A DNA stretch of 64,000 bases. Origin: Pseudomonadota bacterium. GTDB taxonomy: Bacteria; Desulfobacterota; Desulfobulbia; Desulfobulbales; Desulfocapsaceae. The notes under the pieces are model-generated. The model was not told where the DNA came from, searched no databases, and saw only the letters and a program-made list of their open reading frames with translations. Both the position numbers and the translations under genes were made by a program. This document shows, piece by piece, positions 4,272 to 21,376 of this stretch (position 1 is its first letter; the number at the start of each line of letters is the position of its first letter). The DNA lies in assembly GCA_018817385.1 (NCBI GenBank), contig JAHIUA010000092.1, positions 1-64,000 on the forward strand. The letters are read 5' to 3'.

Positions 4272-6035
4272 GAGCCTGAATTTCATCGGGTTCTTCCAGC
4301 ATCCGCACTGCTTTTCTTTTTTTAGGTAACCAGAGAAGGCACGAGTGCAGTTGATGCATGTGGTGCATTGCTGATTTTGCGGTGATATGACACCCGGAAC
4401 GTCGTAGTCGAAGCTCGATGATCCGGAGGAGCGCAAGGGCTGCAATGCAGGTGAAGATATGACATCTGATTTTGCTGTCTGTCCAATGACGAATAGGTCG
4501 CATGCACACCTGATCCTCATCTTTTGTCAGGCGAAATCCATCTTCCACAAACGGTCAAGGCTTGCCTGGACGATTTCATCCGTTGACCAGTTTGCGAGAT
4601 CAGTGATAATGATATTTTTCCCGAACCTATTGATGTGCCGACTTATCCTATAGTGATTTTTTCTGAAATTAACATGAAGCCTGCCTTCTATGTTGGACAC
4701 TTCCATCTTGTATAAATTTGATGGAAGGTGGAGCTCAGTGCACCTCTCCTCGTAGCGCTTTAGGATGCTAGATTGTTTACGCCATTGAGGGGCTTGGTGT
4801 TGCACTTTGGTTTGAATTTCAAACAAAAAATCCTGTAGGGAAAGTAGCTTTTTTTCAAATCCATAACGCTGTTTCGTTGCAGTCCGCGGGTTGTAGGTGA
4901 CTACCACCGTGCGTTGCCGCCCCCAGTACTCGCCCTCCGTTCGCCATGCCAGTAATCGGTCATCATTTTTGCCAATTTCTTCCAAATTTCTATTCTTACA
5001 GGTGTCTACCGGCTTGAAATTTTCCAAGTCAACATGGACAAACTCTTCGCTGAAATAAGTTGAATAGGTGGTTATGAAATTAACATTTTCTTTTGCATCA
5101 ATGGCAGCGATATTGTCTTCGCTGTTCATGCCTTTATCAAAGACAACCGTTAAAGTTGATCCCTCCTTCGAGCTCCCCTGCATTGCAGAAAAAATATCAT
5201 CTATGACCTGTAGGAAAACTTTCGAATCGTGCCGGTTGCCTTCATATTCTTTGTAATAAAGAGGGATGTGTTTGTCGCGGCTAACGAGCAAAGCGAGGCC
5301 AATCTGCCGCAACCAGTTTCGGCCTTCTTTGCTTTTGCCACGCTGGGCCAGGTCAGAGGATGTATCGCTGGCCATGAAAGTGTAGTAGTTGGTGGTGTCG
5401 AACATGAAGCAATCTGAAGAAGATGGCTCCAATCGATTGATGCGCTGAAAAAATTCCCCGGCTATCTGCTGCAATTGTTGTTCATCAACCTGGTCCCATT
5501 TCTGCCAAAACATCTGTGAAGATAGTTCGTCAACTGGAACAGGACGAATATGCTGAATGGCAGTCTGTTTGTACCATTCTGGCATAGCTCGTTTTGAACA
5601 GGCTGCAATCATACGGTTGTAGATGGCATAGAGGAAGTATTCGCCAACAGAAGGTTTCCCTGTTTCTCTTTCCGGTGGCACAATTTCGTCGATCAATCCG
5701 GCAATATCAATATCCTTTTCAATGAGATGGGCCAGCCAAAGCCCACCAAACTCTTGCACCTTGAGTTTACTTGGGAGACTTGTCTTTCCCTGAGCCATTT
5801 CAAGGATGCGCTCAGGTGTTCCGAGATAAACCTGATTGATAACCTTTGGTTTACCCTCAACCCTAGCCATCTCTCGGATGTAGTAATAGGGTCGTCCTTT
5901 TTTCATTTTCTTGTGTAAGTGAGCCATGTTGGTATAATACTAGTAGGGTCTTACAAATGCAAGTAAAAAACATCTATCCTTTTGTTTTTTTGTAATTTTT
6001 TTTAGTAAAAAATTAGTATACCGAGAGGGTCTTAC
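4107..6035 (-). mobile_element. IS1634-family insertion sequence, degenerate
   Basis: The element is defined by the transposase it carries and by an end motif that points inward on both sides. GTAAGACCC is found at 4107 and 4227 on the left, and its complement GGGTCTTAC at 5946-5954 and 6027-6035 on the right. Both ends are therefore present twice, 120 bp apart on the left and 81 bp apart on the right. I found no convincing target duplication outside either pair. Duplicated ends plus a frameshift in the transposase suggest an old, probably immobile copy. The exact outer boundaries are uncertain. Confidence 0.7.
4216..5927 (-). pseudogene. IS1634-family transposase, frameshifted
   Basis: The N-terminal 466 residues (start at 5927, in-frame stop at 4527) match the IS1634/IS4 DDE type: an opening MAHLHKKMKKGRPYYYIRE, first Asp in MFDTTNYYTFMASD and second Asp in VVFDKGMNSEDN. 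The frame then stops. The missing C-terminus continues in another frame (down to 4216) as VEDGFRLTKDE and then RPIRHWTDSKIR, the region that holds the catalytic Glu of this family. Joining the two needs a one-base shift just at the W-x-E-D-x-F motif near 4540, so the main product would lack its catalytic Glu. I see no obvious slippery heptamer, so decay is more likely than programmed frameshifting. A TATTAT -10-like box lies only about six bases upstream of the ATG. Confidence 0.8.
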
Positions 6036-6900
6036 TGGTGTTGCAGTGGTAACATTTTGGATTTGCAGGGTTTTTTTGGAAGGCGCTGGTCTAATTCCTA
6101 AACTCCTGTAAGTGTCACTGAAAGTGAAAAGTGCATTTATGGAGGTTAGCCCGTCTCCTTCCTAGCAGGGGGAAAAACAGCTAACTACCTGACATTAGGT
6201 AATTACAAACGATAATGATTGCGATACGTTGACAGAGGATACTGTGAATGGTAAACAGGAATATTGATTTTTGTAGCAGAGCGTGCATAAGGACAACCTC
6301 AGACAACCGGATAGGAGGTGATGTATAGGCAAAGAGTACGACAGGGAGCTATTTCAAACTAATAACAACACAAAAAAAGCTACTATTAGGCTACTACGAC
6401 AACAACCTGCAGTAGGTAAGAAGAGAAGGTCATATCGATGCACCAGGAACAACAAAGGCGTAACCCCTTAGCAATCAAAGAGTTACACCTTCCTTGGCAT
6501 TGGTGCGGAGGTCGGAATCGAACCGAATACATATCTTCATTTTTATCATATAGATACAAAACACCATCACAGTTCGTTTTAATATATACACCCAATAATA
6601 CACCCCTTATGACATTTTAGCGGCATAGTACCTTTTTGTGGATCCAGGTTCACTCAGGTGCAGCTTAATCGTCCTAAGCGGTCGCATATTCCCGGCCCAT
6701 CGAATGTTTCATCTCGTCTGCGAGAAAGGGATACAGTCTTATAACGTCCTGCGAAGTATTAAAAAATTAAAATTTTGAAAATCTCCGTCCAATGCTGTCC
6801 AAGAATGTCACCTGTGGTGGAAAAGAGAATTAGACAGTCGAATAAGGCCATCGGTTTGGCTTGACAGAGTCTTCCCTTTACCACAACAGGAGAAACCCGC
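6036..6900. other. Long stretch without a supported gene
   Basis: No reading frame here has motifs, ribosome site and context together. It contains the tRNA-3'-end-like segment described separately (6501-6524) and is otherwise anonymous. It probably spans the junction of the chromosome and the conjugative element. Confidence 0.5.
6501..6524 (-). other. tRNA 3'-end fragment, candidate ICE attachment site
   Basis: On the minus strand this segment reads as the T-arm and acceptor end of a tRNA gene: GG, the T-loop TTCGATT, CC, then CCTCCGC-A-CCA. The acceptor sequence suits a tRNA starting GCGGAGG, such as many tRNA-Leu genes, but the T-stem is one base short, so the class is uncertain. The sequence above 6525 does not provide the D and anticodon arms, so this is a fragment and not a gene. 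A 3'-end remnant is what integration of an ICE into a tRNA gene leaves at the end distal to the intact tRNA. The orientation predicts the intact gene on the minus strand beyond the right edge of the window. Confidence 0.45.
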
Positions 6901-6901
6901 A

Positions 6902-7141
6902 ATGAAATACATCGTAATGAAAAATTCCCTCCCTGAAACCGGTTTTGTCCGGTTACCTCACATTATTGGCGATGCCAAAACTCAACCACCCATCCCGGCA
7001 ATTATTCCGGTTTCGAAAAGTACCTGGTGGGCCGGCGTCAAAACCGGCCGTTTTCCTCAACCGATCAAACTTGGCCCCCGCATTACCGCCTGGCGGGTCG
7101 AAGATATTCGCAGATTGATATCCGACAGCAACTGCTCCTAA
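6902..7141 (+). CDS. AlpA-like HTH regulator / excisionase-type protein
   Basis: A 79-residue protein with the AlpA/phage-regulator layout: FVRLPHIIGD at the start of the winged-helix region, then SKSTWWAGVKTGRFPQPIKLGPRITAWRVED split over a helix-turn-helix and wing. The pattern of a first-helix Ser, then RFP-P-KLG and the tryptophan of the wing (AWR-ED-I) is diagnostic of the family. Members bind DNA and either activate integrase/excision genes or act as recombination directionality factors. The ATG follows a clear AGGAG site. It lies 33 bases before the replication gene, consistent with an early operon. Which of the two roles it plays cannot be decided here. Confidence 0.8.
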   Translation: MKYIVMKNSLPETGFVRLPHIIGDAKTQPPIPAIIPVSKSTWWAGVKTGRFPQPIKLGPRITAWRVEDIRRLISDSNCS

Positions 7142-7174: not shown

Positions 7175-8152
7175 ATGGAATGGGTAAAAATCATGTGTAA
7201 CATCCTCGACAACCGAAAGATCAAAATGATCCGAAGCGGCCCGGAGGGCAATACTCTCTCCCTGCTCTGGCTGTTAATGCTCACCGAGGCAGGCAAATGC
7301 AATCGCGGTGGCTACCTTATGATCGCAGACAACCTGCCATACACCGAGGAAACTTTGAATATTCTGACAGGGATTCCTTTGCCCACGGTTCGTCTCGGAC
7401 TCCTTGCCTTCACCGAACTAGGCATGATCGATCGAAAAGATGGGGCGATTTTCATCAAGAACTGGAGGAAATACCAAAGCGAAGACAAACTCCAGGCGCG
7501 CAGGGAAAAAGAGAGGCTCCGGCAGCAGCGGCATCGGGCAACAGTAAGGGAAAAAATGAAGGCTCTGCCGCCTCCGGATGAGGTGTCACGTGACAGTCAC
7601 GTTTCACTGTCACGTGACGTCACGCAGGAGAACAGACAAGAACAGAGTAGAATAGATAAGACAACAACAGAACAGATACGTCTGTTGTTGTCGGGTACTC
7701 CGCTTGGCAAAATCTCCGAGCAGGATTTGGAAGGTCTTGCCAAAAGACATGGTCCGGAACGACTTTCGCAGGCTGCCGACGTTGCCGCCGAAATATGGCG
7801 GCGTAACCCGGAAGACAGACATAACCCGGGAGGCTATCTTCACTCCATGTGCGTTTCCCTTGTCAAACCTGCCTGGTACGTCCCCTTTGAGCAAAGGACC
7901 AGGAGGGCCGCTGAGTCACAACGTCGGAAAAAGATAACACAGGCGGAGCAATCAGCCATGAGACGTAAACAAGAGGAAAATGACGCCGCTATGGACAGCT
8001 TGTGGAATTCGTTATCGGATCAACAGTGCCAGGAATATCAGGACAAGGTGGGTGCCAATCTGCCGAAAAATATTGTGGTTTCTGAAGAAATAATCCTGGT
8101 TATGGCCAAATCAATTGCCTGGCAGGAGGCACAAGCCTGCAACCATGACTGA
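7175..8152 (+). CDS. Phage-type replisome organizer (DnaD-like)
   Basis: The N-terminal ~110 residues match the phage replisome-organizer N-terminal domain: MEWVKIMCNILDNRKIKM, then GNTLSLLWLLMLTEAGKC, a GGYLMIADNLPYTEETLN helix-wing and PTVRLGLLAFTELGMI. A polar linker follows (about residues 128-170, DEVSRDSHVSLSRDVTQEN), then a helical C-terminal region. Proteins of this kind bind an origin and load the replicative helicase. The linker-coding DNA holds strong palindromes and repeats (see the repeat entry), as in lambda O, where the origin sits inside the initiator gene. It is downstream of the AlpA-like gene on the same strand. An ICE with its own replication initiator may replicate autonomously after excision. 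Confidence 0.75.
   Translation: MEWVKIMCNILDNRKIKMIRSGPEGNTLSLLWLLMLTEAGKCNRGGYLMIADNLPYTEETLNILTGIPLPTVRLGLLAFTELGMIDRKDGAIFIKNWRKYQSEDKLQARREKERLRQQRHRATVREKMKALPPPDEVSRDSHVSLSRDVTQENRQEQSRIDKTTTEQIRLLLSGTPLGKISEQDLEGLAKRHGPERLSQAADVAAEIWRRNPEDRHNPGGYLHSMCVSLVKPAWYVPFEQRTRRAAESQRRKKITQAEQSAMRRKQEENDAAMDSLWNSLSDQQCQEYQDKVGANLPKNIVVSEEIILVMAKSIAWQEAQACNHD
7584..7692. repeat. Origin-like cluster of palindromes and repeats inside the replication gene
   Basis: The palindrome TGTCACGTGACA occurs at 7584-7595 and its core GTCACGTGAC again at 7609-7618, with single half-sites at 7596 and 7619. A run of related 10-base units follows (AACAGACAAG, AACAGAGTAG, AATAGATAAG, 7631-7660). Then comes a perfect 11-base inverted repeat, GACAACAACAG at 7660-7670 with CTGTTGTTGTC at 7682-7692. 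All of it lies in the codons of the polar linker of the replisome organizer. I infer a replication origin; the sequence shows only the repeats. Confidence 0.5.
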
Positions 8153-9493: not shown

Positions 9494-10082
9494 AACGCGT
9501 CCTCCATAAATTTTTTCGGGAAAATTCAGATATCACCAGGACTGTAATTAAAAATAATTTCTCTTGTTAAACCTTATGCTCCATTTCAATACAGCTTGCT
9601 CCTCTCACAATACAAGTGACGCCATAATTGGCAGATCGTTATATCAACTTGGATCGACTTGGCATAAATAATCGACATATTAATTTTTAATTGTCTATTT
9701 AAAATGCCTAAAATACGCCTATATGTCCTCCACAATATACAGCTTCATTGTACCGTTATTACTATACTTATTGACATGTACGCCTTCTCAATGTAAGTAA
9801 TAAACCATACAGTTTCACAAAAGAAAAAGCACTAGCAAAATGTACTCTAATTGGCATTTTGAAGAGCAACTCAATCAACCTTGAAATCCGAAGATTAACC
9901 ATATTTCTTACTACGCAGCGCAGGACAAGGTGATGCACAAGACCTATAGGAGAGCATTCTAAAATGATTTTTCAGATGGACATAACACTCACAAGAAGGG
10001 GGCATAGCACTCACACATTACAAATTTAAAATCGGCTACTATGCCACACAGCTTAATCAGCAGAGAGGAGGTCGGTAAAAAA
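9494..10082. promoter_or_regulatory. Divergent control region of the XRE and sigma-like genes
   Basis: This AT-rich intergenic region separates two divergently transcribed regulators and must hold both promoters. Two direct repeats, CATAACACTCACAA at 9981 and CATAGCACTCACAC at 10003, are 22 bases apart, about two helical turns, just ahead of the sigma-like gene, and are candidates for a dimeric regulator site. A TTGACA box occurs at 9771, but no good -10 follows at normal spacing. The frame of the sigma-like gene opens at 10041, but the GAGGAGG site at about 10063-10069 favours a start at 10083. Confidence 0.45.
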
Positions 10083-10616
10083 ATGACGCGCGCAAAACAT
10101 TACCAGCAACAGATCTTCAGCCGGGAAATATGGGATACCGCAATGCATTGGGTAAACACCAACAAAAGGCTTGTTCGTCAGATTGCCTCGCCCTATGTCA
10201 GATTTATGGCCGGTGAAAGCGAAGATCTCTATCAGGAAGCAACAATTTCCGCCTATAACGCCCTGATCTGTTGCATGAAAAATGGCCAGAGAGAAAGATT
10301 TGTACCGTTCTTCCGGGTTATTTTCAAAACCAACTGTATCAAATTGGCATCCGGCATTCAGACGGTACACTGCTTAGAAGAATATTTTCTCCCGCTTCAG
10401 GAAGAAACAGCAGAGAAAGTCGAACCGGAAGCGGATCAAATCGACCAGGTACTACAAGCGGTCAGCAAGCGTCAACGACAGATCTGCCTCTGGCTTCTGG
10501 AGCAGCCCACTCCTGTCAGCACCGTGGATATCGCCAGGGAATTTAAGGTCAGCAAACGTCAAGCCTACCGCTTGCTAAGCAACACTCTTCAGCGCATATC
10601 GGGAGCCACGCAATGA
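10083..10616 (+). CDS. Sigma-70-like / ECF-type transcription factor
   Basis: The protein (177 residues from the preferred ATG at 10083; an ATG at 10041 is also in frame) has a sigma-factor layout. An N-terminal region-2-like segment reads RLVRQIASPYVRFMAGESEDLYQEATISAYNAL in pieces, with the acidic ED-YQEA that follows helix 2. A C-terminal helix-turn-helix (SKRQRQICLWLL and TVDIAREFKVSKRQAYRLL) is typical of region 4. It stands at the head of the transfer operon and overlaps the next gene by ATGA. I infer that it drives transcription of the tra genes. It could instead be a sigma-like activator that does not recruit polymerase itself. Confidence 0.6.
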   Translation: MTRAKHYQQQIFSREIWDTAMHWVNTNKRLVRQIASPYVRFMAGESEDLYQEATISAYNALICCMKNGQRERFVPFFRVIFKTNCIKLASGIQTVHCLEEYFLPLQEETAEKVEPEADQIDQVLQAVSKRQRQICLWLLEQPTPVSTVDIAREFKVSKRQAYRLLSNTLQRISGATQ

Positions 10617-11032
10617 TCTCAATCACTGACTACGCAAAACAAACCCCAATTCCCAAACGTACTCTCAGTTACCTGCACCGTATGGGCATCATCGACGATC
10701 CACTGCGCCAGGAAGACTTGGCAGGCCTTTGCTTTTTCGAACAAATCTGGGGCAATAAGGAGCTACTGCGAGCACAACTGACCTGCCTTTCCATCAAGGC
10801 ACGACTCAGTTTTGTAAGAACTGCCGACCTGCCATCCAAATGGGAACGGTACGCCTACAGTCGCTACTATAACCTGCAGCCGGGAGCAAAGCTCCCCATG
10901 CGCGCGGTCGTCGAAGAAATCCAGACCACCTTTGGCTTTCTTCTTAAAAAGCAGCAGATAAACCGCCTGTATCAAATAAGAAATCGGGTGCAGGTGGTAA
11001 AACACCGGGAAAAAAATGCTGCGAATAATTAA
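10613..11032 (+). CDS. Small basic protein, possible HTH, partner of the sigma-like gene
   Basis: A 139-residue basic protein translationally coupled (ATGA overlap) to the preceding sigma-like gene. Its N-terminus, ISITDYAKQTPIPKRTLSYLHRMGIIDDP, resembles a helix-turn-helix of the MerR or phage-regulator type. The rest is helical and rich in Arg, Lys and aromatic residues. I do not recognise the family. The tight coupling suggests that the two proteins work together, for example as co-regulators of transfer. Confidence 0.55.
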   Translation: MISITDYAKQTPIPKRTLSYLHRMGIIDDPLRQEDLAGLCFFEQIWGNKELLRAQLTCLSIKARLSFVRTADLPSKWERYAYSRYYNLQPGAKLPMRAVVEEIQTTFGFLLKKQQINRLYQIRNRVQVVKHREKNAANN

Positions 11033-16741: not shown

Positions 16742-16810
16742 GTCTAACCGGCGCATATTTTGTGAGCAAAGCAAACGAAATAAGTGTCCGCGTTTACGGC
16801 CTTGTTAGCT
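16742..16810 (-). repeat. attC-like cassette recombination site C
   Basis: On the minus strand the site begins with AGCTAAC, overlapping the TAA stop codon of qatD, as is common at the ends of integron cassettes. It ends with GTTAGAC, a perfect GTTRRRY core. CTAAC and GTTAG pair, as does a GGC/GCC inner box, but the arms are short, so this is the weakest of the four sites. Confidence 0.4.
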
Positions 16811-17542
16811 GAAAGAGTTACCTAACAAAAGCTGCTTAAAGTTGTGTTCTATAATTGCTTCTGCTTCTCTGATATCACACTTCCAGATGCACGCCATCTT
16901 CCCAATCACCAGGCTCGCGTCCCACGGATAAAGAAATCTTCCTGAGAGTTTTGTGAATGGTCCATCGGTTTCTGTTAAAACGCGTTCTTTTGGCATCATT
17001 CTAGCTAGGTCATAGCCCTTTTTCGTTTCCAGCATAGATGGGTTAATGGAAAACCAACACCCTATGTCTATAGCTTTTTTCAGCTGGCTCTGCGTTCCCG
17101 TAAACCAATGAAGTATCGGAATACCATCAACACCAAGGAGGACATCCAACACAGCCGCTGCGCTTGCTCGACTGTGTATCGTCATGATTCTCCCACCGGC
17201 ATTATTCACGCTCCTAAGTATGTGTTGGAATACCTTTAGCTGAACTTTCCAGTGATCCTTAAACCCCCTCCCTCCATCGAGCCCTATCTCACCGACATAA
17301 TTTGCACTTGAGAGTAACGTATCGAATAACTCCAGCTCATGTGACCTTTGGTGCACGATTTGTGGATGAAAGCCTAACGCTGTACGAATGCGCGGACAGT
17401 CATCAGCAAGCTTGCAAGTCCCATTCCAAGCCTTAGGTGTAGTCGTCACTGACAACACATATATCCCTCGCTTTTTGCATTCCTCGGCCACTTTGAATGG
17501 CTCTGGGTATAAATCTAGATGGCAATGCACATCTATGCTCAC
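16805..17542 (-). CDS. qatD: QatD, TatD-family metal-dependent hydrolase
   Basis: The 245-residue protein carries the metal ligands of the TatD deoxyribonuclease family: IDVHCHLD at the N-terminus, VGEIGLDGG near residue 85, TIHSRAS, ILHWFTG and LTETDGPFT toward the end. It starts with GTG overlapping the qatC stop (GTGA). In the Qat system QatD is the TatD-like subunit and is required for phage protection. It is the last gene of the four-gene operon; its stop codon runs into an attC-like site. The association with an adjacent KAP ATPase, a small unknown protein and a QueC-like protein leaves little doubt about the system. Confidence 0.92.
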   Translation of the reverse strand: MSIDVHCHLDLYPEPFKVAEECKKRGIYVLSVTTTPKAWNGTCKLADDCPRIRTALGFHPQIVHQRSHELELFDTLLSSANYVGEIGLDGGRGFKDHWKVQLKVFQHILRSVNNAGGRIMTIHSRASAAAVLDVLLGVDGIPILHWFTGTQSQLKKAIDIGCWFSINPSMLETKKGYDLARMMPKERVLTETDGPFTKLSGRFLYPWDASLVIGKMACIWKCDIREAEAIIEHNFKQLLLGNSFS

Positions 17543-18843
17543 AGAACCCTCTCATCATTCAGGAAGGATTCAACCTCATTTAGTCCATCCAGAAAGACTT
17601 TTTGGTAAGCTTCAAAGTCCACAGCTGGAAGCGGCCCGCTGTCTGCAATCCATGGGCCGGGCTTTCGGGTTGCCTTCTGTGTAATCGCGATCCGAAGGGC
17701 AAGAAGATCATCTCTACGATCTGTCTCATCCAGGATATCCGCCACGGCATTAAAGGTGTATTCGATGCCCTCGGTGATTCCGCCGGCATGCAGTGCCGCC
17801 CGACGAATTATGCAGGGGACGCATATCCCGCATTGTTGATTTGATCGCTTCCAGTGGCTACACGAGACCGTATTGTCCACAATATCCGCCAGCAACTTTC
17901 TGTTCTGACAGTCTGCGGACATCTGTCCCTTGGTCTTAAACTGGTAAGGATTGATGATTTGACATGGAATCTCCGCTGCTTCGAAAATCCTTTGGATACT
18001 GTCGATGAAGTGCGGATGGGTGGTTCGCGTGCTCAGTGTCCCAATGCGTCGGGGGGTCAACGGCGCGTTTAAAGAAATAAAGCCGTTCTCAGGCACGAAC
18101 AGATCAACCTCCTCTTGCGGGGATACAGCCTGCACAGCACAGGCACCAACCGCTGCAAATGCAAGAAAATTTAGACTGCGTGTCCGCATCGTGATGTCGG
18201 TCTCGCCGGTGTACAGGTGTGGGTCCGCATTGACCTCAAAACGGGAGTATCGTCCTGCAAGCGCTTGGGCAATCTGTTCCTGATGCGTCTTATCGCCCTT
18301 ATAGGCATGACTCACCAATAGTGGAGCGCGACCTCGCGCCAGCAGATCGATCGCACCAATAGCTGAATCCATTCCACCTGAAAACAAGCATACAGAATCA
18401 AGACCTCTGAGCCGTACCAGTTGGAACCGATCACGCCGACGATAAGGTACCGGAGGAGGGTGCCCGCCTTCCAGGAATTCGAAGTCCCACATGTCACCGC
18501 TTAGAAAGTGTAGTGCTCTCTCTAGGCCCTTTTTCAAAGGTACCCATCGAGCAGGCTCATGGAGTGGCAGCTGTATGGCGAACTGACGGGTCCAACCATC
18601 CTCACTATCGGAACGTCGTACAAAGGTATCCGCGGCGGTTACCGCGAGTGCGATCGTCAGGAAATCCATGACCTGGCTGGGAATACGCACTCCCAGGCGT
18701 CTCACCTTATCGATGACCGGATTCCCGATGATAGATATATCACCTCGGCCTTGGCCGCTTAAGCCATACAGTTGCACCGGCAACAAACCTTCTCTGGCCG
18801 GGGGCAGCAGCTGGTGATTGTGGTGGAATACTAAATGTGTCAC
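17539..18843 (-). CDS. qatC: QatC, QueC-like PP-loop protein
   Basis: The PP-loop motif VCLFSGGMDSAIGAID lies near residue 155 and a cysteine cluster, CSHWKRSNQQCGICVPC, near residues 340-355. Together these mark a QueC-like ATP-pyrophosphatase of the kind that makes 7-cyano-7-deazaguanine precursors. QatC has an additional N-terminal region of about 150 residues. The frame extends to 18858, but the GTG at 18843 overlaps the qatB stop as GTGA and follows GGGAGG at seven bases, so I prefer it. Its product in the Qat system is not known to me; nucleotide or protein modification by a deazaguanine-like chemistry is a reasonable idea. Confidence 0.92.
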   Translation of the reverse strand: MTHLVFHHNHQLLPPAREGLLPVQLYGLSGQGRGDISIIGNPVIDKVRRLGVRIPSQVMDFLTIALAVTAADTFVRRSDSEDGWTRQFAIQLPLHEPARWVPLKKGLERALHFLSGDMWDFEFLEGGHPPPVPYRRRDRFQLVRLRGLDSVCLFSGGMDSAIGAIDLLARGRAPLLVSHAYKGDKTHQEQIAQALAGRYSRFEVNADPHLYTGETDITMRTRSLNFLAFAAVGACAVQAVSPQEEVDLFVPENGFISLNAPLTPRRIGTLSTRTTHPHFIDSIQRIFEAAEIPCQIINPYQFKTKGQMSADCQNRKLLADIVDNTVSCSHWKRSNQQCGICVPCIIRRAALHAGGITEGIEYTFNAVADILDETDRRDDLLALRIAITQKATRKPGPWIADSGPLPAVDFEAYQKVFLDGLNEVESFLNDERVL

Positions 18844-19592
18844 TGGTAGGCCTCCCATTCCTTCCAGGTATCGATGATGGTCTGGCGCTCAATCTGAGCC
18901 ATTTGCTGACGGCTAACGTTCCTCACATTACCTGCGAGTTTAGGAGCCATATGCTTGTCGACAACGACCTTGATGAGTTCCCGCAGCTCAGTTTCTGCTC
19001 GCATCGCCTGCGTAGGGGTATCTGCTTTGTTCCATGCTTTATCAGAGTCCATCACCATTTGCAGGAATATGCTTTCGGCCAAGTAGCCAATCATGGTGTC
19101 GACAATGACATCATCGGTGATGCATTGAGGATCAAAGGTCTCCACGCCATCCAGCGCCTCAACCAAGGCATGATTCATCGCGGCACGGATCTTATCCGAA
19201 TCCCCGTCTTCCGTGGTCAGTGCATGGGTAATAGTCGATATCGCCAGCTCGCAGGGTAGGCCTGCCAAACTGCCAAGATCGAAACTAGACTCACCTGGGG
19301 CAGGTGGCACTCCCGCCAGGGCGCCGAAGAGCCCGGAGCCAGCTTGGGTGACACTCCCCATTCGCCTGGCGGCACTACCTCCACCTCCACTGGATTTGCG
19401 CGCGTAGTGGCCAACAGCACTCTTTAGATCGTTGAGATCGCGCCCGGACACAAACTTTCCCAACGACTGTCGGAAGGCCATAAACCTTGCCGGTTGGGGT
19501 GTAGTTTGAGGTTGCTGTGGCTGATCATCCGCCCATGGCGGTACCAGTGGCGAACCGCCTCCCGGGCCGGTGCTTGATTGTGAAGTCCCCAT
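18840..19592 (-). CDS. qatB: QatB, unknown-function subunit of the Qat system
   Basis: The 250-residue protein opens with a polar, low-complexity N-terminus (GTSQSSTGPGGGSPLVPPW), followed by a helical region with GKFVSGRDLNDLKSAVGHYA and a glycine-serine-rich patch (RKSSGGGGSAARRMG). The C-terminus is all-helical. These are features of QatB proteins, which have no assigned activity. Its start shares one base with the qatA stop and its stop overlaps the qatC start, so the four genes are translationally coupled. Confidence 0.85.
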   Translation of the reverse strand: MGTSQSSTGPGGGSPLVPPWADDQPQQPQTTPQPARFMAFRQSLGKFVSGRDLNDLKSAVGHYARKSSGGGGSAARRMGSVTQAGSGLFGALAGVPPAPGESSFDLGSLAGLPCELAISTITHALTTEDGDSDKIRAAMNHALVEALDGVETFDPQCITDDVIVDTMIGYLAESIFLQMVMDSDKAWNKADTPTQAMRAETELRELIKVVVDKHMAPKLAGNVRNVSRQQMAQIERQTIIDTWKEWEAYQ

Positions 19593-21376
19593 TAAGCGTC
19601 CTTATGCCATTGCTCTTCTTTGAGCGCAGCTGTCATCCACGGAGGGCGTTTGTCGCCCAAATCCAATTCCTGCAGATACCGTACAAGGACCTTGGCCGCA
19701 TCCGCGGAATGCCGAGCCAGCAGGCAGGCGCCTGAAAATCCTTTGGGTTTCCGGGACCAATCGGAAATCTGCCTCAGATGACTGATGACCCCTTCCATCA
19801 CCGGTATCTGTTCCTCCAAGGGGAGGGTATCCAATAGCTTTTCCGCAGTCGGAGAGCTGGTATTCTTCGTGTCCACCAGCACATCCAGGATTTCTCGCCC
19901 TGTAGGGGATAACCCTATCACATAGGCACCGATCGGCATGGTTTCCCGGGACAAGTAAATTGCGGCCCTCAGGTCTACCCCGCTCAGGCAGGGTTGGAGC
20001 TGCGCCCAATCGCTTATGAAAGATTTGGTGGTTGGGTTATCCGTCCATGTCTTAGGGGCATCATCGGGTATATGGCCACCTCTTTCCTCTAGCTGCTTGA
20101 GCAGTGCGGGCGTTCCCTGTTCAGCGTCAACCAAGCGATAGAAATCAGCCGTTGCTTGCACACCAACGCATCGCTCGAAGATCACCAACTTGGTGATGAT
20201 GGCTTCATCCAAGGGCATTGATCGACGCTGGGCAATCTGTGAGCGCATTTTAACGACATTCAACAGTCGTTTCACGATCCGTGGGTTTCCGTGGATGATA
20301 GGGGAGTTGGCCAGTACCGGGGCAATACGGTCGGCCCGGGCAAACGCCCTGGCTAAGTCGCCGTCCTCCGACTCTCCGGTCAGCACCAGCGCATCCTGGC
20401 GGGTAATGGGGTCGTCCTTCCAGGACTGCTGCAAGGCCTTCTCCAACCCTTCTCGGAGCGTTTCGAGCTTTTCCACAGGTAGGTGATGGTCAATGGCGTA
20501 GAGCATAAACAGATAAGAGCGGATCTCCCGAACACCGGCCTTGGGTACACGGATGGGCACTTGAATCAGCTTGTCCAGATAGTCGATCTGGTGTCGGTCC
20601 GAAGCCCCTTTGAAGTAGTCGGCTACCGAAGAGCGGATCATTTCTTCGTCGGCCGCGATAATGAAGGCTGTATTTGTCAGGAACAAGAACAGCCGGATGG
20701 CCTCAAGGGTATGGATTGCGTTGGTTGGCAAGCAGCGATCAAGGTTATCAATGACCACCACCAGTGGCTTACCAAGCTCTTCCAGGATCTCTCCGTATTC
20801 CTTCCGGAACGCATCGATCTGCTGGGGTGGACTGTTCTTTGTCTCAGGCCTTAGCAGTCCGCCAGCCTGTTCCTTCGCTTCTTTGGCGGTTTTACCTAGG
20901 TTCCCGTATTCCTCCTGGTCTTGAATACCGTCAGCGGCATCTCCCAGGGCGCCAACACTTTTGGCTATAAGGCCACCTGTGGGGACCCCGGCAAACAGAG
21001 CGGCGCCCTCGGCCAATAGCCCCATAACTCTGAATCCATCGACCCGGGCCAGAAGTTTTTTGGTTTTCTTAGCCAGACTGGCGTTGCCGTCCGCGGCTTC
21101 TGTCAGCGCGGTAGCGATAACCTCAAGGAGCGCAGCCCGTGCATCGTCATATCCCTGGTACAGCCAGGCGTCGAACTTGATGACGATCCAGTCCTTCTCA
21201 TCCTGCTCCAGCTTCTCCTCAATCAGCTTCAATAGCGAGGATTTGCCGGCTCCCCAGTTACCGAAAACGCCAACTGAGACCGGCAACATGCCGTCCGCTG
21301 TAAGAATGTCGACTGCGAGTTGTGAGACTTCTCCAAAATTAAGATAGTCCTTATCGGATTCGGTATCTGACCACAA
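19592..21376 (-). CDS. qatA: QatA, KAP-family P-loop NTPase
   Basis: The 594-residue protein has a KAP-type Walker A, GVFGNWGAGKSSLLK, at residues ~36-50 and Walker B, LVVVIDNLDRCLP, near residue 210, followed by the KAP-typical LEAIRLFLFLTNTAFIIAAD. KAP NTPases are STAND-like ATPases often found in phage defence. The start is a TTG at 21376 preceded by a GAGGG site; an attC-like site ends about 30 bases upstream, so the operon promoter must lie in or before the neighbouring cassette, as with other cassette genes. It is the first gene of the Qat operon. Confidence 0.92.
   Translation of the reverse strand: MWSDTESDKDYLNFGEVSQLAVDILTADGMLPVSVGVFGNWGAGKSSLLKLIEEKLEQDEKDWIVIKFDAWLYQGYDDARAALLEVIATALTEAADGNASLAKKTKKLLARVDGFRVMGLLAEGAALFAGVPTGGLIAKSVGALGDAADGIQDQEEYGNLGKTAKEAKEQAGGLLRPETKNSPPQQIDAFRKEYGEILEELGKPLVVVIDNLDRCLPTNAIHTLEAIRLFLFLTNTAFIIAADEEMIRSSVADYFKGASDRHQIDYLDKLIQVPIRVPKAGVREIRSYLFMLYAIDHHLPVEKLETLREGLEKALQQSWKDDPITRQDALVLTGESEDGDLARAFARADRIAPVLANSPIIHGNPRIVKRLLNVVKMRSQIAQRRSMPLDEAIITKLVIFERCVGVQATADFYRLVDAEQGTPALLKQLEERGGHIPDDAPKTWTDNPTTKSFISDWAQLQPCLSGVDLRAAIYLSRETMPIGAYVIGLSPTGREILDVLVDTKNTSSPTAEKLLDTLPLEEQIPVMEGVISHLRQISDWSRKPKGFSGACLLARHSADAAKVLVRYLQELDLGDKRPPWMTAALKEEQWHKDA

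Follow-up and report, generated by a model that had tools for sequence, protein, structure and literature searches.

The lambda O gene carries its own replication origin, and the question raised by the locus described here is whether a replisome organizer gene (rep) of a Gram-negative integrated element does so too. We analysed a window of 64,000 nt (GCA_018817385.1, contig JAHIUA010000092.1, positions 1-64,000) from a member of the Desulfocapsaceae (Desulfobacterota). In this window, rep (7175-8152, forward strand) encodes a protein of 325 aa that matches PF09681 (Phage_rep_org_N; E 2e-42) over residues 3-121 with 144 bits, against a curated cut-off of 23.3, and also TIGR01714 and phrog_4880. 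A Pfam scan at E <= 1 returned PF09681 and a weak HTH_Crp_2 match only, with no match to PF06970 (RepA_N). Sequence searches of PDB found no relative, the one hit being a chance match (E 0.11). An AlpA-like excisionase/regulator gene (6902-7141, forward strand; PF05930, E 4.9e-5) is located directly 5' of rep, and the same arrangement was observed in 6 of 6 relatives examined (71-76% identity by tblastn).

The original prediction had assigned rep to an ICE, and this was right. A 21-bp direct repeat, CGGAGGTCGGAATCGAACCGA, forms attL at 6506-6526, and its other copy lies at contig positions 104696-104716, at the 3' end of a tRNA-Leu(caa) gene (L160:690-776). The tRNA gene is adjoined by an ORF of 439 codons that resembles a tyrosine integrase, an identity read from the sequence by eye. 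Between the att repeats we found genes for TraC, TraU, TraG (TraG_N), a TrbI-like protein and a TraD/TraG-type coupling protein, which represent F-type transfer. With these att repeats, integrase and transfer genes the host element is an ICE of about 98 kb, and rep is situated near its left end. A relaxase search in the ICE gave only an HD-domain match beside the coupling protein gene (E 6.4e-6), and assignment of the relaxase to MOBH is a guess. TraU genes were also present in the genomes of the rep relatives L006 and L007 and of two relatives from the same order (L161 and L162). Several other genes were observed in the window: a small sigma-70-like ICE protein (10041-10616; TIGR02937, E 6e-9, below cut-off), a DDE transposase gene just outside attL that adjoins polysaccharide genes (4527-5927, reverse strand), and a QatA-like KAP NTPase (16805-21376, reverse strand; PADLOC QatA, E 0) whose TatD-like and QueC-like neighbours, read by eye, look like the rest of a QatABCD defence system. 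A defence island occupies 35915-61410 (reverse strand), with a type IIG-like restriction/methyltransferase, PLD-Snf2 helicases, NERD-UvrD, AAA and a PDC-S68 candidate.

Inside rep, a segment at about 7584-7692 is composed of three parts: ACGT-core iterons, an A-rich and T-poor tract, and an inverted repeat. The two palindromes with extra half-sites that had been predicted are present. Palindrome 1, GTCACGTGAC, is located at 7585-7594; a single unit, GTCACG, follows as a half-site at 7596-7601 (forward strand), and an ACGT core occurs at this place in the closest relatives, with a 2-bp shift in L007. Palindrome 2 occupies 7608-7624, where a second GTCACGTGAC (7609-7618) overlaps GTGACGTCAC (7614-7623), the whole forming the 17-mer TGTCACGTGACGTCACG. 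The predicted run of related 10-base units was likewise found, at about 7628-7677, with AGAACAGA at 7629, 7639 and 7669; these units make up the A-rich tract (7625-7677, forward strand), which is 56% A and 8% T over 7628-7677 and is a candidate unwinding region. The inverted repeat exists as well, at 7660-7692, although its length had been given as 11 bases and the actual arms are 12 bp (7660-7671 and 7681-7692, with a loop of 9).

These elements were far more frequent than the encoded amino acids would require. The linker of the window gene contains 6 GTAACG/GTCACG units, with 1.0 expected, and none of 20,000 synonymous resamplings reached 6. It also contains 3 palindromes, with 0.05 expected (synonymous resampling, P 5e-5). 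A search of the 5.38-Mb host genome located GTCACGTGAC at these two places only, whereas the reversed control pattern occurred 7 times, and the 17-mer was found once in the window even when 3 mismatches were allowed. No DnaA box was detected near the segment, and this lack weighs against an origin. Besides, a search for a DnaC/IstB loader or DnaB (DnaB_C) gene near rep found neither, one sub-cutoff match being the only one in the ICE, and this absence also counts against an origin.

The predicted structure of the protein places the iterons in a distinct region. AlphaFold models a winged-helix domain for residues 14-94 (codons 7214-7456, forward strand), which matches CRP-type winged helices and RepA initiators (Z 8.2-9.1); against the RepA initiators 4pql, 4pta and 4pt7 the score was 8.2-8.6 over 85 residues, tied with CRP-type proteins. 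A continuous helix is predicted for residues 103-130 (7481-7564, forward strand; block pLDDT 71-90, and 86-90 over residues 111-130), and it includes the basic motif E113-R-L-R-Q-Q-R-H-R121 (codons 7511-7537, forward strand), a proposed iteron contact in the columns that covary with iteron type. Codons 137-161 (7583-7657, forward strand) encode a linker predicted to be disordered (pLDDT < 50) and overlap both the iterons and a portion of the A-rich tract. An embedded origin would be tolerable for the protein, since the linker encoded by the iterons is predicted to lack order. A helical C-terminal domain is predicted for residues 164-322 (7664-8140, forward strand) and was modelled alone with a pLDDT of 89.5. 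A fold search with this domain gave no clear structural match (best Z 4.9); a DnaD domain (2i5u, Z 3.5) and lambda P (Z 4.1) were considered as its fold and rejected, their scores being too weak.

Full-length relatives of rep were found in Desulforhopalus L006 (66%), in L007 (65%), in IMG/VR L009 (71%), in L008 (43%) and in two genomes, L161 and L162, from the same order (49-52%). An alignment-based viral scan recovered L009 again (as L286) and found no other close relatives. In a comparison of the window gene with L006, L007, L009 and L002 (the gene found in L161), wherever an amino acid was shared in codons 137-166, which lie inside and just 3' of the predicted disordered linker, the codon was identical in 186 of 198 cases (94%). 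Elsewhere in the gene the figure was 43%, and the highest value in any other 30-codon window was 57%. Since synonymous codons are 94% identical here against 43% elsewhere, the DNA of codons 137-166 is under selection. This makes it barely credible that conservation acts at the protein level or that the repeats arose by chance from a low-complexity linker, since the amino acids SRD...SRDVT are indeed conserved too but the synonymous codons contradict the former, and unit counts far above those of synonymous resampling argue against the latter.

The iterons, the A-rich tract and the inverted repeat are all kept in close relatives, down to third codon positions, and only the most distant relative, L008 (43% identity), has degenerate iterons (TCACGTGAT and CCGTGATGTAACG). 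The original prediction would have failed had homologous genes lacked the repeats; that objection falls because relatives keep the same codons in 186 of 198 comparisons, and at the family level iterons occupy the same linker position in most PF09681 genes. The inverted repeat is present in all seven genes with differing arms and compensating changes: GACAACAACAGA in the window, GACAACAACAAC in L162, GACAACAG paired with CTGTTGTC in L009, and ACAACAGAC paired with GTCTGTTGT in L161. Summed over the seven genes, arm length was 65, compared with a null mean of 36 and a null maximum of 49 in 300 null runs; taken singly, the repeats of L007 and L008 were non-significant. A hairpin search limited to loops of <=10 nt had suggested that the window inverted repeat was not conserved, a result overturned once loops of up to 26 nt were allowed. 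The rep of L003/L162 (about 9995-10939) is broken into two reading frames of 122 and 196 aa, which reflects a frameshift or an assembly error.

To examine the wider family, we collected phage, plasmid and IMG/VR loci, yielding 91 non-redundant genes, 84 of which were picked independently of the iteron. In these 84 genes, the 14.9 kb of linker contained 325 GTAACG/GTCACG units (both strands) and the remaining 54.7 kb contained 21, i.e., 21.8 per kb versus 0.38 per kb in the rest of the same genes (57-fold). At least two linker units occurred in 73 of the 84, with 18 expected from synonymous resampling. The window 17-mer is found letter for letter in the rep gene of a Bacillus altitudinis plasmid (L016), and its reverse complement in B. 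paramobilis and E. faecium. One PF09681 gene, from Fusobacterium phage Funu1 (L020), has no ACGT iterons; its linker contains the repeats GGACAATGTCC and GGACATTGTC, which possibly represent a third iteron type.

A scan of IMG/VR for the 17-mer gave at least 120 loci, and among the matches listed, 94 of 120 were inside PF09681-like ORFs. In the other 26 listed loci, which include two that look like truncated or broken PF09681-type genes (L244 and L255), the motif [DEN]xxR[QKN]xxxR was present no more than 45 residues before the site in 18, compared with 1.5% of control windows. Five of these 26 were scanned; PF09681 was matched in none of the five, and four matched phage replication-initiation or primosomal families. 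In L243, L267, L276, L280, L246 and L270, the 17-mer iteron directly follows a DRxRQ-like basic motif in replication-type genes, and those of the six that were scanned gave no PF09681 domain.

This distribution bears on the idea that the segment serves the ICE in cis in some other way, for example as oriT or in partition. An ICE does require sites of these kinds, and in SXT/R391 elements replication proceeds from oriT by way of TraI (PMC4489591), but the same type of site occurs in the same gene of phages and of plasmids typed as non-mobilizable, and the iteron type follows the helix of the rep protein (see below), which renders this explanation very improbable.

Taken together, the segment at about 7584-7692 is probably an origin of replication that lies within the initiator gene, in its linker codons, a reading that we give a probability of roughly 0.83 on sequence evidence. 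Iterons in linker codons, together with conserved DNA, are what marks origins of the initiator-gene kind, and both are present. The original prediction of an embedded origin thus gains support from the family comparison and from synonymous conservation. The rep protein would bind the iterons by its basic helix together with the winged-helix domain and would then open the A-rich tract; its C-terminal domain would recruit the host replicative helicase, and replication of the ICE circle would start after excision. No clear structural match was obtained for the C-terminal domain, so its recruitment of the helicase is a step that we infer. Similarly, we infer initiation at this segment, and replication of the excised ICE from it, from the patterns described and from experimental precedents in other initiator genes. 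A different possibility is that the iterons are operator sites by which the rep protein regulates transcription from inside its own gene, with no replication start. Palindromes near the gene of a DNA-binding protein would look alike, and the observed patterns fit binding as well as initiation. However, the sites are about 410 bp into the gene and not at a promoter, the adjoining conserved A-rich tract and inverted repeat are origin-like, and related layouts in other families are origins, all of which makes regulation alone improbable.

If the embedded-origin reading holds, the question arises of which part of the protein reads the iterons. Iterons fall into type A (GTAACG; 49 genes) and type C (GTCACG; 27 genes). 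Among 130 alignment columns, those best associated with type were 120, 116, 121, 123 and 118, all in one basic helix upstream of the iterons, with scores that use residue sets picked from the same data; the same columns also led when ranked by independent pairs. Columns 119 and 124 in this helix stretch are nearly always arginine, and the helix face that covaries with iteron type consists of N/T/E/D at column 116, R at 119 and R at 124. A tree calculated with the helix stretch left out placed at least 10 type changes on well-supported branches. In each of the 10 independent pairs, residue 120 (K/N versus V/Q/A) switched together with iteron type (p 0.002), a result that is somewhat optimistic in that the K/N grouping was picked after the data were seen. 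When loci selected by the 17-mer were dropped, the five helix columns still ranked first, and the sign test gave 5 of 6 pairs (p 0.06). The clade of the window is an exception at column 120, combining Q with C-type iterons; its residue at column 116 is E or D, which is also the case in most motifs outside PF09681 (DRxRQ).

Basic regions of eukaryotic bZIP proteins read ACGT-core sites through an N-x7-R face, and the helix pattern resembles their base-reading face, a resemblance that serves as a lead only. A leucine zipper after the basic region was not seen in the AlphaFold model, where the helix stops at residue 130 and is followed by the disordered linker. We put forward tentatively, at somewhat short of an even chance, that a common basic-helix module, present in PF09681 initiators and in replication proteins of other phages without the domain, reads ACGT-core origin iterons in a bZIP-like manner, that the code is partly readable (V/Q with GTAACG; K/N or E/D..Q with GTCACG), and that helix and origin travel as a matched cassette. 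Alternatively, the segment is an origin whose iterons are read by the recognition helix of the winged-helix domain, and the covariation of the basic helix reflects only the carriage of both on a single recombining cassette; this overlaps the embedded-origin reading above and differs from it just in how the iterons are read. In RepA_N proteins, the N-terminal domain uses a winged helix to bind origin boxes (PMC5703833), and the rep N-domain matches such domains at the Z scores of 8.2-8.6 given above. Column 74, in the region of the recognition helix, ranked seventh. Moreover, because several A/C pairs look like cassette swaps, helix and iterons may be inherited together; for example, L164 and L010 share 95% and then 47% nucleotide identity. 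Joint movement of a similar cassette has been reported for pPR9 versus pSK41 (PMC5703833). On the other hand, scores are low for columns 106-115, which belong to or adjoin this helix, and high for 116, 118, 120, 121 and 123, and the 9-residue motifs of L021 and L110 are identical save for N/V and Y/H, yet their iterons differ. At the sequence level, both observations argue for function, and not linkage alone, behind the helix-iteron covariation. Considering also the basic motif in 18 of the 26 listed 17-mer loci without a PF09681 match, two truncated PF09681-type genes being included in the 26, reading by the winged helix is a real though rather unlikely alternative.

If the embedded origin and the helix code are correct, a Gram-negative conjugative element would gain phage-type replication after excision, beside the relaxase-driven route of SXT/R391, and a family that so far bears no more than the label 'putative replisome organizer' would become a predicted initiator-origin pair. 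The residue-base relation would be testable via swaps of two or three residues, and origins could be located in many phages by sequence alone. Dozens of related phage genes carry this kind of DNA code at the corresponding position, and its variation seems to follow that of a short stretch of the protein that would read DNA, which would make protein-DNA recognition testable. We found no description of this iteron family or helix code in the literature, with most subscription journals outside coverage, and no link of GTAACGTTAC to phage origins; literature matches for GTCACGTGAC were unrelated among the matches listed.

Lambda O and SPP1 gene 38 are established cases of an origin carried within an initiator gene (cited in PMC5499656), and the proposed origin of the window gene has this layout. 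In 80alpha, ORF20 contains an embedded origin, its deletion is not complemented in trans, and ORF20 with ORF21 is sufficient for autonomous replication (PMC5499656); this origin carries a rep_origin annotation (L163). Like the candidate segment in the window, it is situated in linker codons of the initiator gene and is followed by an inverted repeat. In contrast, the N-terminal domain of ORF20 is not PF09681, its iterons differ, a DnaC-like loader gene follows, and it is located on a phage. Because the 80alpha origin gene is not PF09681, the experimental precedents come from other initiator families. The annotated 80alpha origin (L163, 1175-1400) ends in the hairpin TTGTCGGGCAACCCGAC, and the same hairpin occurs after the iterons of B. 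altitudinis L016; hairpins of this type are present with compensating changes in other Bacillota genes, and both the ORF20 and L016 proteins have a Phg_2220_C C-terminal domain.

In pSK41, the origin is also inside rep, and the linker that it encodes is dispensable (PMC5703833). The pSK41 Rep protein has an N-terminal winged helix, Rep boxes in central-linker codons and a separate C-terminal domain (PMC5703833). The window gene is like pSK41 rep and other RepA_N initiator genes in its boxes in linker codons and separate C-terminal domain, and its N-domain may be similar in fold, but it has no PF06970 match, contains ACGT-core palindromes and resides on a Gram-negative ICE. PF09681 genes of Bacillota phages and plasmids (e.g., phi11, B. 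altitudinis L016 and E. faecium L021) have the same domain, linker ACGT-core iterons and a purine/A-rich tract; unlike in the window gene, the C-terminal domains are of other kinds and a gene for a helicase or loader often lies next to them, and their C-class helix is mostly N..RK or N..RN, whereas that of the window is E..RQ. Integrative elements with replisome organizers are also known, and the replication of excised IMEs was then unstudied, according to a review (PMC5704250). IMEs with replisome organizers (e.g., Tn6104) and ICEs with dedicated theta replication (TnGBS) similarly use a phage- or plasmid-type initiator for maintenance after excision; such replisome-organizer IMEs are Gram-positive, unlike the window element, and the passages of the review on these elements do not describe an embedded origin. 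Initiator genes that carry their own origin are known already, and the ICE setting and the helix-iteron code are new: the rep gene of the window, with its PF09681 domain and ACGT-core iterons, belongs to the known embedded-origin kind but resides on an ICE of a Gram-negative host.
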